In this document: piece after piece, positions 3,141 through 11,739 of the stretch | Layout of the letters: the number at the start of each line of letters is the position of its first letter | How positions within the stretch are numbered: the first letter of the stretch is position 1 | DNA from: a virus | Direction: 5' to 3' (one strand) | Length of the DNA: 35,369 nucleotides | Virus record (IMG/VR): IMGVR_UViG_3300032291_003737 | Span: 1-35,369 of that record | Notes under the pieces: model-generated | What the model saw: only the letters and a program-made list of their open reading frames with translations | Databases searched by the model: none | What the model was told of the DNA's origin: nothing | Translations under genes and position numbers: made by a program

Positions 3141-3920
3141 TCAATTGCCCCATGGGTTGTCTAGACTGGCACCACCGCCGCCCAACAACACAAAGTCTCT
3201 ATCGATCCAAGTGTCCCAGGCTGTGCTTTTGTTGACTTTGGTTCGAGCCATGTAACTTCTAAGACGAGTGCCCAAAGGTGTCAGCATGCCGTTCTCATTG
3301 CGGATCAGCTGTTCACCTGTTCTTGGATCCACCCATTCATATTTCTCCGGCACTTCTTTGCCATACTTGTTGACTCTAATGCCCACAGCTCTAGGAGCCA
3401 CTGGACCAATCACTTCGTAGGTTATGGCATTGTTGGTATACTTGCGAAAGATCACATCGCACTTTTGTCCACTGGCTTTCCACTGGGTGTCTGGATGTGG
3501 GAATGTTCTACTCACAAAGGTAGTGACTATGTAGTGACCCGCGATCTCTTGGGGTGGTGGTGGCACTTCGCGCAGTGTGTCCACTGGCACCAGATCGTTC
3601 TTGTCCAAGTAAGGATTCTCTGGATTAAACAGTTCAACGGGAGGTGCTGCACCGTTTAGGATATCCAAGGCTGTTTGGTATTTGTATTGGTTGCTGCGAC
3701 CTTTCAAGTCTATGCTGTGACCAGTGCGGTCGAACAGAAACTTCTCCAGCTCTTTGGCTGTGGGAAAGTCTGTCTTAAGACCTTCCAAGTCGAACATCAT
3801 CTCGGTGTTGGCTTCCACTTTGGGTGCGGGTGCAGGTGTGGATTTGGTTTTGGTTGCGGGTGCGACTGATTGCTCAGTCTGTTGGTTCCAAACATTTGGT
3901 TTGGCGTCTTGCTTGTTCAT
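3141..3920 (-). CDS. Conserved phage hypothetical protein (259 aa)
   Basis: Residues 1-40 form a low-complexity Ala/Pro/Thr/Lys tail (ATKTKSTPAPAPKVEANTE). A predicted folded part follows, from about residue 41 to the end, with mixed alpha/beta character and a C-terminal Gly-rich stretch (LLGGGGASLDNPWGN). A good ribosome site (AAGGA, 9 nt before the ATG) supports the start at 3920. It is the first gene after a roughly 130-bp gap containing two hairpins and is followed at 1 bp by the gene upstream of terL. I do not recognise the family. Its position in the packaging operon suggests a head or packaging role, but that is inference. Confidence 0.85.
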   Translation of the reverse strand: MNKQDAKPNVWNQQTEQSVAPATKTKSTPAPAPKVEANTEMMFDLEGLKTDFPTAKELEKFLFDRTGHSIDLKGRSNQYKYQTALDILNGAAPPVELFNPENPYLDKNDLVPVDTLREVPPPPQEIAGHYIVTTFVSRTFPHPDTQWKASGQKCDVIFRKYTNNAITYEVIGPVAPRAVGIRVNKYGKEVPEKYEWVDPRTGEQLIRNENGMLTPLGTRLRSYMARTKVNKSTAWDTWIDRDFVLLGGGGASLDNPWGN

Positions 3921-4045: not shown

Positions 4046-4050
4046 ACTTA

Positions 4051-4287
4051 TTACTTTTTAAAGCTGCGCTTGCCACTATTGTCGCCTACCTGATCAGCCT
4101 TATTGACATAATCACTGCGACTTTGACCGCGAGCACTGAACATGTTCAACACCATATCGGCCAATGGAGCACGGGCGGCTTTGTCGGCCACGCACATCTT
4201 GCGTTTGCCATCATGAGCATCTGCATTGCCCACTCGTGGACCTTGTGCCACATTTACATTCTTAACACTTTTTGGATTGGTCATCAT
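4051..4287 (-). CDS. Small basic hypothetical protein (78 aa)
   Basis: A 78-aa basic protein (MMTNPKSVKNVNVAQGPRVG...) ending RSFKK, with two cationic clusters. A GAGGAA ribosome site precedes the first ATG at 4287; a second ATG follows immediately. No domain is recognised. It is part of a run of very small basic proteins (5421 down to 4051) that are largely coupled by overlaps. Two hairpins follow it. The Gly/Arg/Lys content would suit nucleic-acid or capsid-interior binding, but nothing in the sequence proves that. Confidence 0.75.
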   Translation of the reverse strand: MMTNPKSVKNVNVAQGPRVGNADAHDGKRKMCVADKAARAPLADMVLNMFSARGQSRSDYVNKADQVGDNSGKRSFKK

Positions 4288-5452: not shown

Positions 5453-5737
5453 TCAATTGGCCAAGCCAGGATAACTGCGTCGAGCTGGTAAGGTTCTATC
5501 TGGATTCAATTGATCTGTGTCTCGAGCTGCACTTTGTCTACCACCCATGATTTTAGCATGATAGCGAATGCTTTGATCTTGGCTGCGTCTGCTGTGTGGT
5601 TGGTCAAAAGTCTTATGCGGACCTTTTGGTTTTTTGTTCAGCGCACCTTCGCTGATTAGGTTCTTGGTTTCACTGATGCTGCCCAATGGTCGAGCCCGTG
5701 TGATTTCACTGACTCTGGGTGTCTTGTTCTTATTCAT
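5453..5737 (-). CDS. Basic hypothetical protein (94 aa)
   Basis: A 94-aa protein rich in Arg, Lys, Pro and Ser (MNKNKTPRVSEITRARPLGS...), probably disordered. I chose the ATG at 5737, which overlaps the upstream stop by 8 bases (ATGAATAA). A longer reading to 5770 would overlap the neighbour more deeply. No family is recognised. Like its neighbours it is small, basic and tightly packed, fitting a set of DNA-, RNA- or capsid-binding helpers. Confidence 0.65.
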   Translation of the reverse strand: MNKNKTPRVSEITRARPLGSISETKNLISEGALNKKPKGPHKTFDQPHSRRSQDQSIRYHAKIMGGRQSAARDTDQLNPDRTLPARRSYPGLAN

Positions 5738-6071
5738 CTCGGGTCTTTCTGGCCATGGCGGCCAATGCATCAGTGAATGCCACTCGCTTGGCTTCGATTA
5801 GATCATCATTCACAGTCAAATCCAAGTCTACCTTGTCGGCCACTACCTTGCTGAGAAACAGTTTATCATATTGATGTATCATACCTTTGTCACCTTCGGC
5901 TAGACAGTTGGTATAGTTGTCCACCAATTGTTCCACATAGGTTCGACCAGTGCTCATTTCTATCTGATCTAGTATGGCCTGGCCGCTGAGTTTGGTGCTG
6001 ACACCTGCGGGACGGCCTGCGCCTGCTCTAGCTCCGCCGCGACTGCTGATCTTAATCTTGTTTGTGGCCAT
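5730..6071 (-). CDS. Putative small terminase-like or DNA-binding protein (113 aa)
   Basis: The N-terminus has the Gly/Arg-rich signature RGGARAGAGRPAGVSTKLSG, common at the start of phage small terminases and other phage DNA-binding proteins. A helical part follows (LDQIEMSTGRTYVEQLVDNY, then a stretch to residue 113). Small terminases recognise the packaging site and hand DNA to the large subunit. Its position upstream of terL, in the same direction and separated by other small genes, is compatible with that. ACTAAATA lies 39 nt upstream of the ATG; no clear ribosome site is visible. The alternative is a general DNA-binding protein, and the 116-aa gene adjacent to terL competes for the small-terminase role. 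Confidence 0.7.
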   Translation of the reverse strand: MATNKIKISSRGGARAGAGRPAGVSTKLSGQAILDQIEMSTGRTYVEQLVDNYTNCLAEGDKGMIHQYDKLFLSKVVADKVDLDLTVNDDLIEAKRVAFTDALAAMARKTRDE

Positions 6072-6110
6072 ATGTAAATATCGAATTCTGATTTTGATTC
6101 CGTGTTAAAT

Positions 6111-6118
6111 TATTTAGT
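6111..6118 (-). promoter_or_regulatory. Late-promoter-like motif ACTAAATA
   Basis: An exact ACTAAATA, 39 nt upstream of the ATG at 6071 and just downstream of the terminator that closes the 80-aa moron-like gene. It would restart transcription for the small-gene/terminase operon. Confidence 0.55.
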
Positions 6119-6121
6119 CGT

Positions 6122-6150
6122 AAAAAAACCCACCAAGTTAAGGGTGGGTT
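6122..6150 (-). terminator. Rho-independent terminator of the 80-aa gene
   Basis: On the minus strand AACCCACC (6150-6143) pairs with GGTGGGTT (6134-6127) around an 8-nt loop, and the stem runs into seven T (6128-6122). This is a textbook intrinsic terminator for leftward transcription, 25 nt after the stop codon. Confidence 0.9.
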
Positions 6151-6161
6151 CGAAACCTATT

Positions 6162-6175
6162 ACACTTTAGGAGGT
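6162..6175 (-). promoter_or_regulatory. 3' UTR element complementary to the gene's own Shine-Dalgarno
   Basis: Immediately after the stop codon the transcript reads ACCTCCTAAAGTGT, a perfect 14-nt reverse complement of the ribosome-site segment at 6440-6427 in front of the same gene. In the mRNA the two can pair and hide AGGAGG. It sits between the stop codon and the terminator. The complementarity is seen directly; the regulatory effect is inferred. Confidence 0.6.
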
Positions 6176-6418
6176 TTAGGTTTTTAATAACATTACTAAA
6201 AAATCTTGTTGAAACTCTTTGTTATTCCAAACAATATCATTAATTTGATATTGAACATTATCTACATTAACAAATCTTTGTCCCCAACTGTGGAATATTG
6301 GATCTCTGTATCGATTTAGAATTACATCTAAACTTGCTTCTTTTGCACTATCCAAATCTTCTTCATCTCGAATTGTGATAATGTGCCATGGACCGCGCTT
6401 ACCTTTTTGAATTTCCAT
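6176..6418 (-). CDS. Moron-like hypothetical protein (80 aa) in an autonomous cassette
   Basis: An 80-aa soluble protein (starts MEIQKGKRGPWHIITIRDEE) with acidic and aromatic residues and no recognised domain. Its DNA is visibly more AT-rich than the surrounding structural genes. It has its own sigma70-like promoter (TATAAT with a 17-nt spacer), a perfect AGGAGGT ribosome site 7 nt before the ATG and a strong terminator. None of the neighbouring genes has this full set. Such self-contained units are typical of phage morons: transferred genes expressed independently of the phage programme, often acting in host interaction, superinfection exclusion or counter-defence. A 14-bp inverted repeat flanks the gene and places an anti-ribosome-site in the 3' UTR. 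The specific function is unknown. Confidence 0.8.
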   Translation of the reverse strand: MEIQKGKRGPWHIITIRDEEDLDSAKEASLDVILNRYRDPIFHSWGQRFVNVDNVQYQINDIVWNNKEFQQDFLVMLLKT

Positions 6419-6426
6419 TGTGTGTT

Positions 6427-6440
6427 ACCTCCTAAAGTGT
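6427..6440 (-). promoter_or_regulatory. Strong ribosome site with two possible masking structures
   Basis: ACACTTTAGGAGGT precedes the ATG at 6418 and contains a consensus AGGAGG at ideal spacing. It is the perfect complement of 6162-6175. In addition CATTGT just upstream (about 6447-6442) can pair with ACAATG, which includes the start codon, closing a local hairpin over the same site. Confidence 0.65.
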
Positions 6441-6454
6441 TACAATGTGTAGCA

Positions 6455-6483
6455 ATTATAGCAGGTATATTACTATATGTCTG
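6455..6483 (-). promoter_or_regulatory. Sigma70-type promoter for the 80-aa gene
   Basis: On the minus strand the -10 is a perfect TATAAT (6460-6455) and the -35 is CAGACA (6483-6478), four of six matching TTGACA, separated by 17 nt. The expected start is near 6448, giving a leader of about 30 nt that begins with the two pairing elements. This is the best host-type promoter I see in the window. Confidence 0.75.
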
Positions 6484-6509
6484 TGACTTTTTCGCAACAG
6501 ATTATCGTT

Positions 6510-7145
6510 TTACTCATACATGACCGTGGTAGTGTCACCTAGGCTCCATTTGGGATTGGTTTCTACCACATATTTACGAGTAGCTACTCGAAAGTCTGGG
6601 AACACCAGTTCTTTGGGATTTGACGCTGCATCAAAGAATCTACAACGGTTGTTGGGCTGTGCTGCATACTGTCCATTGGCCAACTGTATAAAGTTAAAGC
6701 TCTTGTGATCCTTGGGCCATTCACTGTAGGTGGTATCAATCATGTTCATGTCAGGTGCAGCATTGTCCACTGTGAACATGTAGTCGCCCTGATGTAGCTG
6801 CCGGTCTTTGGCATAGAACTCACAGCTGAGATTGCGTAGGAATGCTTTTTGCAACACTGCAATGTCATAGCTGAAGCAGTCCCAGATTTGCAGTGTGTCC
6901 AGTTCCAAAAACTTGTCTGGCTTTAGATCATGGTTTCTACTCACATAAGCACTCAAAGGCAGTTTGTCATACAGTGCAGCATATCTGGGCAAGTAGGCTT
7001 CTATTCTAAATGCTTGGCTGCGTAGGCTTTTGATGCTGACCCATATACAGGGTTCATACTCTCCATGGCCAGATTCAAAGTCATAGAGAAATTCTCTACG
7101 CACAAAACAGTGTATGGGTGGTAGGTTGGCTACTAAAAAACTCAT
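6510..7145 (-). CDS. Conserved phage hypothetical protein (211 aa)
   Basis: A 211-aa soluble protein, MSFLVANLPPIHCFVRREFL..., rich in aromatic and charged residues and without signal peptide, membrane segment or repeats. A good AAAGGA ribosome site precedes the ATG at 7145. Upstream lie a 16-bp perfect palindrome and an ATAAATA promoter-like motif 38 nt from the ATG. The composition suggests an alpha/beta globular fold. I have a sense of similar proteins in aquatic phage genomes but cannot name a family or a reaction. It is separated from the moron-like gene downstream by that gene's own promoter. Confidence 0.85.
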   Translation of the reverse strand: MSFLVANLPPIHCFVRREFLYDFESGHGEYEPCIWVSIKSLRSQAFRIEAYLPRYAALYDKLPLSAYVSRNHDLKPDKFLELDTLQIWDCFSYDIAVLQKAFLRNLSCEFYAKDRQLHQGDYMFTVDNAAPDMNMIDTTYSEWPKDHKSFNFIQLANGQYAAQPNNRCRFFDAASNPKELVFPDFRVATRKYVVETNPKWSLGDTTTVMYE

Positions 7146-11463: not shown

Positions 11464-11739
11464 ATGACAGATACGAACCTAAAAACCGTGAAATCACGCA
11501 TTATTTGCGTCAAAAAAGAGGCAAAAAAGACTACGGAAAGCGGTATTATTCTCTCCAGCAGCCAGACTAGCGACGAAGACCAATGGGCCACAATCATAGC
11601 AGTTGGACCCGATGTGACCAAGGATATCTCTGTGGGAGATCGTATTGTGCCTGTGTGGAGCACTGTGGGTGTGATTACCCAAGGTCAGGTGCAATACTTT
11701 GTGGTTGATGAGAGCAATGTTTTGTGTGTGTCAAAATGA
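11464..11739 (+). CDS. GroES-like co-chaperonin (91 aa)
   Basis: A 10-kDa chaperonin-type protein, the heptameric lid that closes the GroEL folding chamber. Recognisable elements in order: an N-terminal strand VKSRIICVKK; a mobile-loop region with SGIILSSSQ, corresponding to the GGIxLP contact with GroEL; WATIIAVGPDV corresponding to the VVAVGPG strand; SVGDRIVPVW corresponding to the vGDkVlf turn; and a final strand with VDESNVLCVSK corresponding to the ..DILAV end. Length (91 aa) is normal. Phage co-chaperonins such as T4 gp31 adapt host GroEL to fold the capsid protein; the same role here is inference. The next gene overlaps its stop (ATGA). Confidence 0.9.
   Translation: MTDTNLKTVKSRIICVKKEAKKTTESGIILSSSQTSDEDQWATIIAVGPDVTKDISVGDRIVPVWSTVGVITQGQVQYFVVDESNVLCVSK

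Follow-up and report, generated by a model that had tools for sequence, protein, structure and literature searches.

The DNA analysed here, which we refer to as the window, is the full stretch of 35,369 nucleotides in the IMG/VR virus record IMGVR_UViG_3300032291_003737, a phage record with terminase, portal and capsid genes. A GroES-like co-chaperonin gene (Pfam Cpn10, E 6e-11) is located on the plus strand at 11464-11739, with the structural genes on the opposite strand. Upstream of a TerS-like gene, a minus-strand message that spans about 6450 to 6122 carries a small gene bounded by a leader hairpin and a tail hairpin (Table 1). The leader hairpin constitutes the 5' end of the message; its loop contains the Shine-Dalgarno (SD) sequence, and the ACAATG strand of its stem contains the start codon. 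At the other end, the 5' strand of the tail stem includes most of the TAA stop codon.

The original prediction, made from the letters of the DNA, described a gene with its own sigma70-like promoter, ribosome site and terminator. The TATAAT box and its 17-nt spacer were confirmed, and the -10 element is of the extended type with TG (TGCTATAAT), whereas the -35 element is weaker than was implied. The -10 element is kept in all type 1 and type 2 leaders, and several relatives have TTGACA or TTGACT at -35. The AGGAGGT ribosome site and the local pairing of CATTGT with ACAATG over it were both read directly at the places expected, and the gap between the 3' arm and the terminator is as short as proposed, the terminator stem starting 11 nt past the arm. 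A terminator-like hairpin with a T run, of differing sequence, also stands 3' of the tail in the listed relatives.

Table 1. Features of the slot in the window and of the genes on either side.
Feature	Positions	Strand	Details
Promoter, sigma70-like	6455-6483	-	-35 CAGACA 6483-6478, 17-nt spacer, TATAAT 6460-6455
Leader hairpin	6416-6447	-	CATTGT 6447-6442 pairs with ACAATG 6421-6416
5' arm ACACTTTAGGAGGT	6427-6440	-	Includes Shine-Dalgarno AGGAGGT 6433-6427
Cargo gene, 80 aa	6176-6418	-	ORF; stop TAA 6178-6176; unrelated genes instead in relatives
Tail hairpin AAAACCTA-loop-TAGGTTT	6153-6184	-	Stem AAACCTA 6183-6177 with TAGGTTT 6159-6153
3' arm ACCTCCTAAAGTGT, anti-Shine-Dalgarno	6162-6175	-	Sits in tail loop
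Intrinsic terminator	6122-6150	-	Stem AACCCACC 6150-6143 / GGTGGGTT 6134-6127, then T run
TerS-like gene	5730-6071	-	RGGARAGAGRP motif; directly downstream; fixed address of slot
Upstream neighbour, PHROG 3704	6510-7145	-	In window and L003; absent beside slot in L001

The claim that the segment directly after the stop codon is an exact 14-nt complement of the segment holding the ribosome site also proved correct, as ACCTCCTAAAGTGT is the reverse complement of ACACTTTAGGAGGT. In 3000 dinucleotide shuffles, the longest complement between the 5' end and the 3' end was 12 nt, as compared to the 14 nt observed (0/3000 reached 14), and for the window's 13 other GGAG..ATG sites, no complement within the next kb exceeded 10 nt. 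Furthermore, no sense-strand site in the window is a better target for the tail than its own leader, and the minimum free energy structure predicted for the transcript forms the 14-bp helix with four flanking pairs (z = -4.4). On its own, the motif AGGAGGTAACACACAATG lacks specificity, as it also matched the unrelated phages L004-L008.

Pfam, PHROGs and PADLOC returned nothing reliable on the function of the cargo and no match for the 80-aa protein, of which a mixed alpha/beta model obtained with AlphaFold2 (mean pLDDT 81) gave no significant match in a fold search. The single close relative of the gene in IMG/VR, L001, is 98% identical and retains 13 of the 14 arm pairs, with a changed 5' arm and an identical 3' arm, rather than having lost the complementarity where the gene is kept. 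A distant homologue of the protein (35% over 62 residues) was identified in the first slot position of L174. In INPHARED, where the terminase nearest to that of the window is 50% identical, neither the gene nor the leader nor the tail has a relative, and a scan of the genome collection for the 80-aa gene returned no relative. A tail-pattern scan of that collection yielded 36 matches in scattered taxa, which is near the estimated chance number. Phage morons are AT-rich extra genes with their own promoter and terminator, and the description of this gene as AT-rich and moron-like is apt in that it has a GC content of 0.31 versus 0.46 in the flanking DNA and both of these signals. It differs from a moron in that the frame is fixed and the gene changes, and morons with matching RNA elements at their 5' and 3' ends are not known to us.

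It is on this point that the original prediction, which tied the device to the 80-aa gene, had to be revised, since the leader and the tail delimit a slot with variable cargo that holds unrelated genes in the relatives. The same leader and tail enclose different cargo in L003, L010, L057, L072, L080, L150, L155, L159, L160, L163, L174, L175 and L181; in L003 these are two unrelated genes of 54 and 87 aa, and in L010 two genes other than those of L003. The window and L003 have identical TerS-like proteins and are 94-96% identical at the DNA level on both flanks, with homology being lost 3 nt past the start codon and coming back at the first base of AAAACCTAA in the tail. L001 retains the 80-aa gene beside a different upstream neighbour, and here homology starts near the -10 region. 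Because homology breaks at these places, frame and cargo appear to recombine at the promoter or leader and at the tail.

The cargo consists of one to three small genes (43-171 aa), or four genes in L068 and L073, has a GC content of 0.31-0.37 versus 0.40-0.50 in the surroundings, and shares one orientation in all cases found. AAGGAAC-like ribosome sites are common between the cargo genes. In 15/15 full-tail slots tested, the last gene has its stop codon between -16 and +6 nt relative to the tail, at +6 (within the tail stem), at -1 or at most 16 nt upstream; an exception is L112, with a stop codon about 40 nt upstream of the tail. Hairpins of the type GCCCGAAAGGGC are repeated between cargo genes or ahead of the tail in L003, L010, L057, L080, L112, L160 and L163, and are possibly internal processing or partial termination sites. 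In L068 (about 318-340) and L073 (about 3490-3510), the second slot gene ends in AAAACCTAG, a near-match to the first nine bases of the tail, immediately followed by the ribosome site of the next gene, which looks like a tail scar from the joining of cassettes.

The slot carriers are uncultured, mostly environmental phages of one terminase family, in which the TerS-like gene lies downstream of the slot. L010 and the phage of L057 have terminases 71% identical to that of the window, and a terminase scan with these two as queries recovered 80 relatives. A scan with the leader only, for which the tail was not needed, gave 35 matches. The leader matches in L058, L059, L153, L157, L162, L164, L165, L167, L176, L177, L179 and L180 were discarded by judgement as due to chance. 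Nearly all contigs with a full leader also have the tail, 226-868 nt downstream. Those without it are L168, in which the contig ends first, and L161, in which the leader (minus strand, 2369 of the reverse complement) has a lengthened stem, UGUAGA/UCUACA, and the tail hairpin is gone. L136, which has a tail-like hairpin without a matching SD, was left out. Inspection of the region ahead of the TerS-like gene in 28 loci of the terminase family yielded further, divergent pairs from L068 and L073 (GGGAGAAG with CUUCUCCC and AACAC with GUGUU, the L068 leader being read at the other end of its record, L149) and from L112 (GAGGAGGC with GCCUCCUC). The distribution is patchy, because most of these 28 loci are without the leader/tail element, and the leader/tail types are interspersed in the terminase tree. 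The window has one copy of the leader, and Rfam at the gathering score gave no matches in the window slot (L002) or in L010, L057, L159, L163 and L175.

Two other segments were observed in these phages. A second tail-like hairpin, AAAACCTAGTATCTCCTTAGACATTTGACCTAGGTTT, is located in L149 at 4046-4082 (record G007, 35545-35580) within a separate small operon that lies just upstream, and its best match by eye is to the SD of the second gene in that operon (UCUAAGGAG, 9 bp), not to that of the first. Related phages that lack the slot have a conserved segment, AGAGAGGATGCCAGTG..AAGCCCAATCTCT, ahead of the TerS-like gene (L015 1-100, L038 about 2790-2890), which is possibly structured and in which the end arms seem to change together; Rfam gave no match to this segment in L015/L038.

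A comparison of related phages for covariation of the two arms had been proposed as a check, and the outcome is in favour of pairing: the SD helix is kept in 16 distinct leader/tail pairs, including that of the window, with compensatory changes at several positions. The arms occur as GGAGGU/ACCUCC, GGAGGC/GCCUCC, GGGAGAAG/CUUCUCCC and GAGGAGGC/GCCUCCUC. All 16 leader/tail pairs form the GGAG:CUCC core plus the two base pairs after it, in an alignment cut by hand around GGAG/CUCC and thus with a manually set register, and in types 3 and 4 the core, but not the flanks, is biased because these were noticed through tail hairpins bearing CUCC or TCC. Past the core, the first pair is GC in 14 and AU in 2 cases, the second is CG in 9, UA in 4, AU in 2 and UG in 1, and the third is formed in 10/16 with three pair types. 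Likewise, the leader stem co-varies from CAUUGU/ACAAUG to CAUAGU/ACUAUG, and its pair 4-21 (UA 12, AU 3, UG 1) is broken in none of the 16, a 2-nt bulge having been removed from the L068/L073 leader stem. The conservation of CACATTG and AGGAGG in itself proves nothing, because the leader scan required them; neither the stem strand with the start codon nor the tail belonged to the scan pattern.

In shuffles, doubly changed cells numbered 5.3 as compared to 17 in the data, and the covariation score was 0.064 as compared to 0.181 (0/500), these figures being uncorrected for kinship among the sequences. Every covariation measure drops if the partner is slid by 1-3 nt. The independent compensatory events are few, about three in the SD helix and one or two in the leader stem, because the sequences are related. 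Duplex energies provide a further comparison: of the 120 ways to match five tail types with five leader types, the cognate one ranks first. The type 1 leader has -20.5 kcal/mol with its cognate tail versus -11.5 to -13.8 with the others, the type 3 leader -20.0 versus -8.3 to -11.6, and the type 4 leader -19.0 versus -9.7 to -14.9, while certain leaders bind tails of another type tolerably and the L057 leader binds the type 1 tail better than its own.

In 11 of 15 tail-bearing transcripts of 275-817 nt, SD-tail pairing was predicted with P >= 0.9, and weaker pairing was predicted for L080 (P 0.19) and for L057 and L175 (about 0.5). In L072, the SD pairs with a local anti-SD copy instead of the tail; the leader (2397-2428) contains a copied AAAGCCTC directly after the SD, which gives a local hairpin over the ribosome site besides the tail. 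Shuffling of the tail loops brought the mean SD-tail P down to 0.00-0.28, and tails of another type gave 0.24-1.00 (nine transcripts in each case), so most of the contact comes from the SD core. In the examples folded, each end alone forms its own hairpin, although weakly for some leaders, and a loop-loop contact is therefore possible; kissing loops lie outside the model of the folding programs used.

Our findings thus support the original reading of an mRNA that closes by pairing of its two ends. The frame with its two elements, their complementarity and covariation, the geometry at the stop codon and the exchange of cargo are all features of the sequences, and they make the pairing between the leader and tail arms well supported; the pairing may in turn control translation, decay or stability. 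We consider it likely that these features are best explained by a cargo-independent "bookend" pair by which the first ribosome site of the mRNA is closed on completion of the transcript, and repression of the first gene is probably the effect of the pairing. The changing together of the arms across the relatives suggests a portable control device, whatever the cargo. We lean, if only slightly, toward a class of portable phage mRNA frames, in which co-evolving 5' and 3' hairpins control any inserted gene or operon alike and which travels with or without its cargo by recombining at the start- and stop-codon points.

The message would begin with a small hairpin whose loop holds the SD and whose stem holds the AUG; while still nascent, this hairpin could temper early initiation. 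At the 3' end, a hairpin at the stop codon and ahead of the terminator would expose the anti-SD in its loop. Once the tail has been transcribed, the loops may pair in a kissing contact of 6-8 bp that could be extended to 13-14 bp, and the message would then be circularised in the cell, with the ribosome site of the first gene masked and shut. Ribosomes that finish at the final stop codon would sit over the tail, and the lock should therefore close mainly on messages that are no longer translated. The strong promoter would then yield a brief, self-limiting burst, and RNase III might cleave the duplex between the arms.

We also considered the possibility that the pairing protects the message, such that a buried 5' end and ribosome site stop a nuclease of the RNase E/Y type and produce a long-lived mRNA. 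Both ends are structured, as the leader stem starts no more than a few nt from the expected 5' end and the tail lies right against the terminator, and the pairing in the hbs mRNA of Bacillus subtilis has the identical length of 14 nt (PMC7821165). However, at the centre of the conserved contact lie the SD and the start codon instead of a known cleavage site, and with a strong promoter and SD there seems to be no need of a stabiliser, which makes this explanation unlikely. It is quite improbable that the full-length message is inert and later activated by 3' trimming of the tail, for delayed translation of an early RNA pool. The parts are admittedly similar to those of the hok/aapA mRNAs, with a 5' hairpin that possibly acts during transcription and then an anti-SD contact between the ends (PMC6733600), and the tail is the last element ahead of the terminator. 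Yet the cargo is not a small hydrophobic toxin, the operons have up to four soluble-looking genes, and the terminator hairpin should shield the 3' end. A consensus scan of 5980-6620, which is no proof, had no plus-strand (antisense) promoter among the matches that passed.

The tail could also be a trans-acting small RNA derived from the 3' UTR, with a C-rich loop that hits host SDs and matches its own leader as a by-product. A hairpin followed by a terminator does look like such an RNA, and CUCC loops are able to bind many SDs, but the pairing beyond the SD core tracks the cognate leader, and within the window the tail has its best sense-strand site in its own leader; we find this very unlikely. 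The exact placement of the cargo exchange between leader and tail might even hint that the arms are inverted repeats in the DNA for the exchange or inversion of cassettes, with the pairing in the RNA being incidental. This we regard as exceedingly improbable, since the arms are not identical, with bulges and internal loops in L057 and L080, one-sided drift in L001 and the RNA core pairs kept, and since all cargo found is in one orientation. The arms are moreover placed at landmarks of the RNA, namely the SD, the stop codon and the terminator, and covariation that keeps RNA pairs while breaking the identity of the repeats is seen in part.

To our knowledge, few bacterial mRNAs close from the 5' to the 3' end over the ribosome site, and each of these is one gene studied singly. 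We found no phage example of a frame with 5'-3' self-pairing in the open-access literature, which was the scope of the search. The frame marks a slot for accessory genes in a large uncultured phage family, and small proteins of unknown function could be collected by means of it. With five types of natural matched pairs and exchangeable cargo, the idea is directly testable, and the pair could be reused as a compact two-part control element.

The closest comparison is with the icaR mRNA of Staphylococcus aureus, in which a motif in the 3' UTR pairs with the SD of the same message (PMC3868564), whereby ribosome loading is blocked and a substrate for RNase III is formed. In the slot, a 3' UTR segment is likewise complementary to its own SD region, in 16 distinct pairs including that of the window. 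However, icaR is one chromosomal gene with a 7-nt motif in a 3' UTR of roughly 390 nt, absent from S. epidermidis (as summarised in PMC7821165), whereas the slot has hairpin-borne arms beside the stop codon, covariation and interchangeable phage operons. The 5'-3' UTR interaction of hbs, which blocks RNase Y (from the same summary), resembles the slot in pairing the two UTRs over 14 nt, but it is described as protection of one gene and is not a portable frame. The SAS/ESAS sequences in cluster K mycobacteriophages are similar in that a conserved translation-start sequence is common to different phage genes. They consist of a 13-bp start sequence present 11-19 times per genome and only at starts, in contrast to the one leader copy in the window, and no 3' partner is described in the available part of PMC3203893.

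In the type I toxin mRNAs hok/aapA, a 5' hairpin is followed by an SD lock through an anti-SD near the 3' end, and for hok covariation has been documented (Gultyaev 1997, as cited in PMC6733600). Judged from prediction and covariation, the slot has a similar long-distance 5'-3' anti-SD contact and a metastable 5' hairpin, a likeness in architecture only. Its cargo is not a short hydrophobic toxin (80 aa in the window and a diverse 43-171 aa overall) and its operons may hold several genes, and membership among the type I toxins was rejected on the cargo. The portions available of PMC3868564, PMC7821165 and PMC6733600 do not present icaR, hbs or the type I toxin mRNAs as frames around exchangeable cargo. 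The leader and tail are, in our judgement from sequence comparison, a conserved RNA feature with covariation support and a portable version of a known regulatory kind. The best explanation would be that the slot resembles the icaR or hok/aapA mRNAs in principle, but in a form that is portable.
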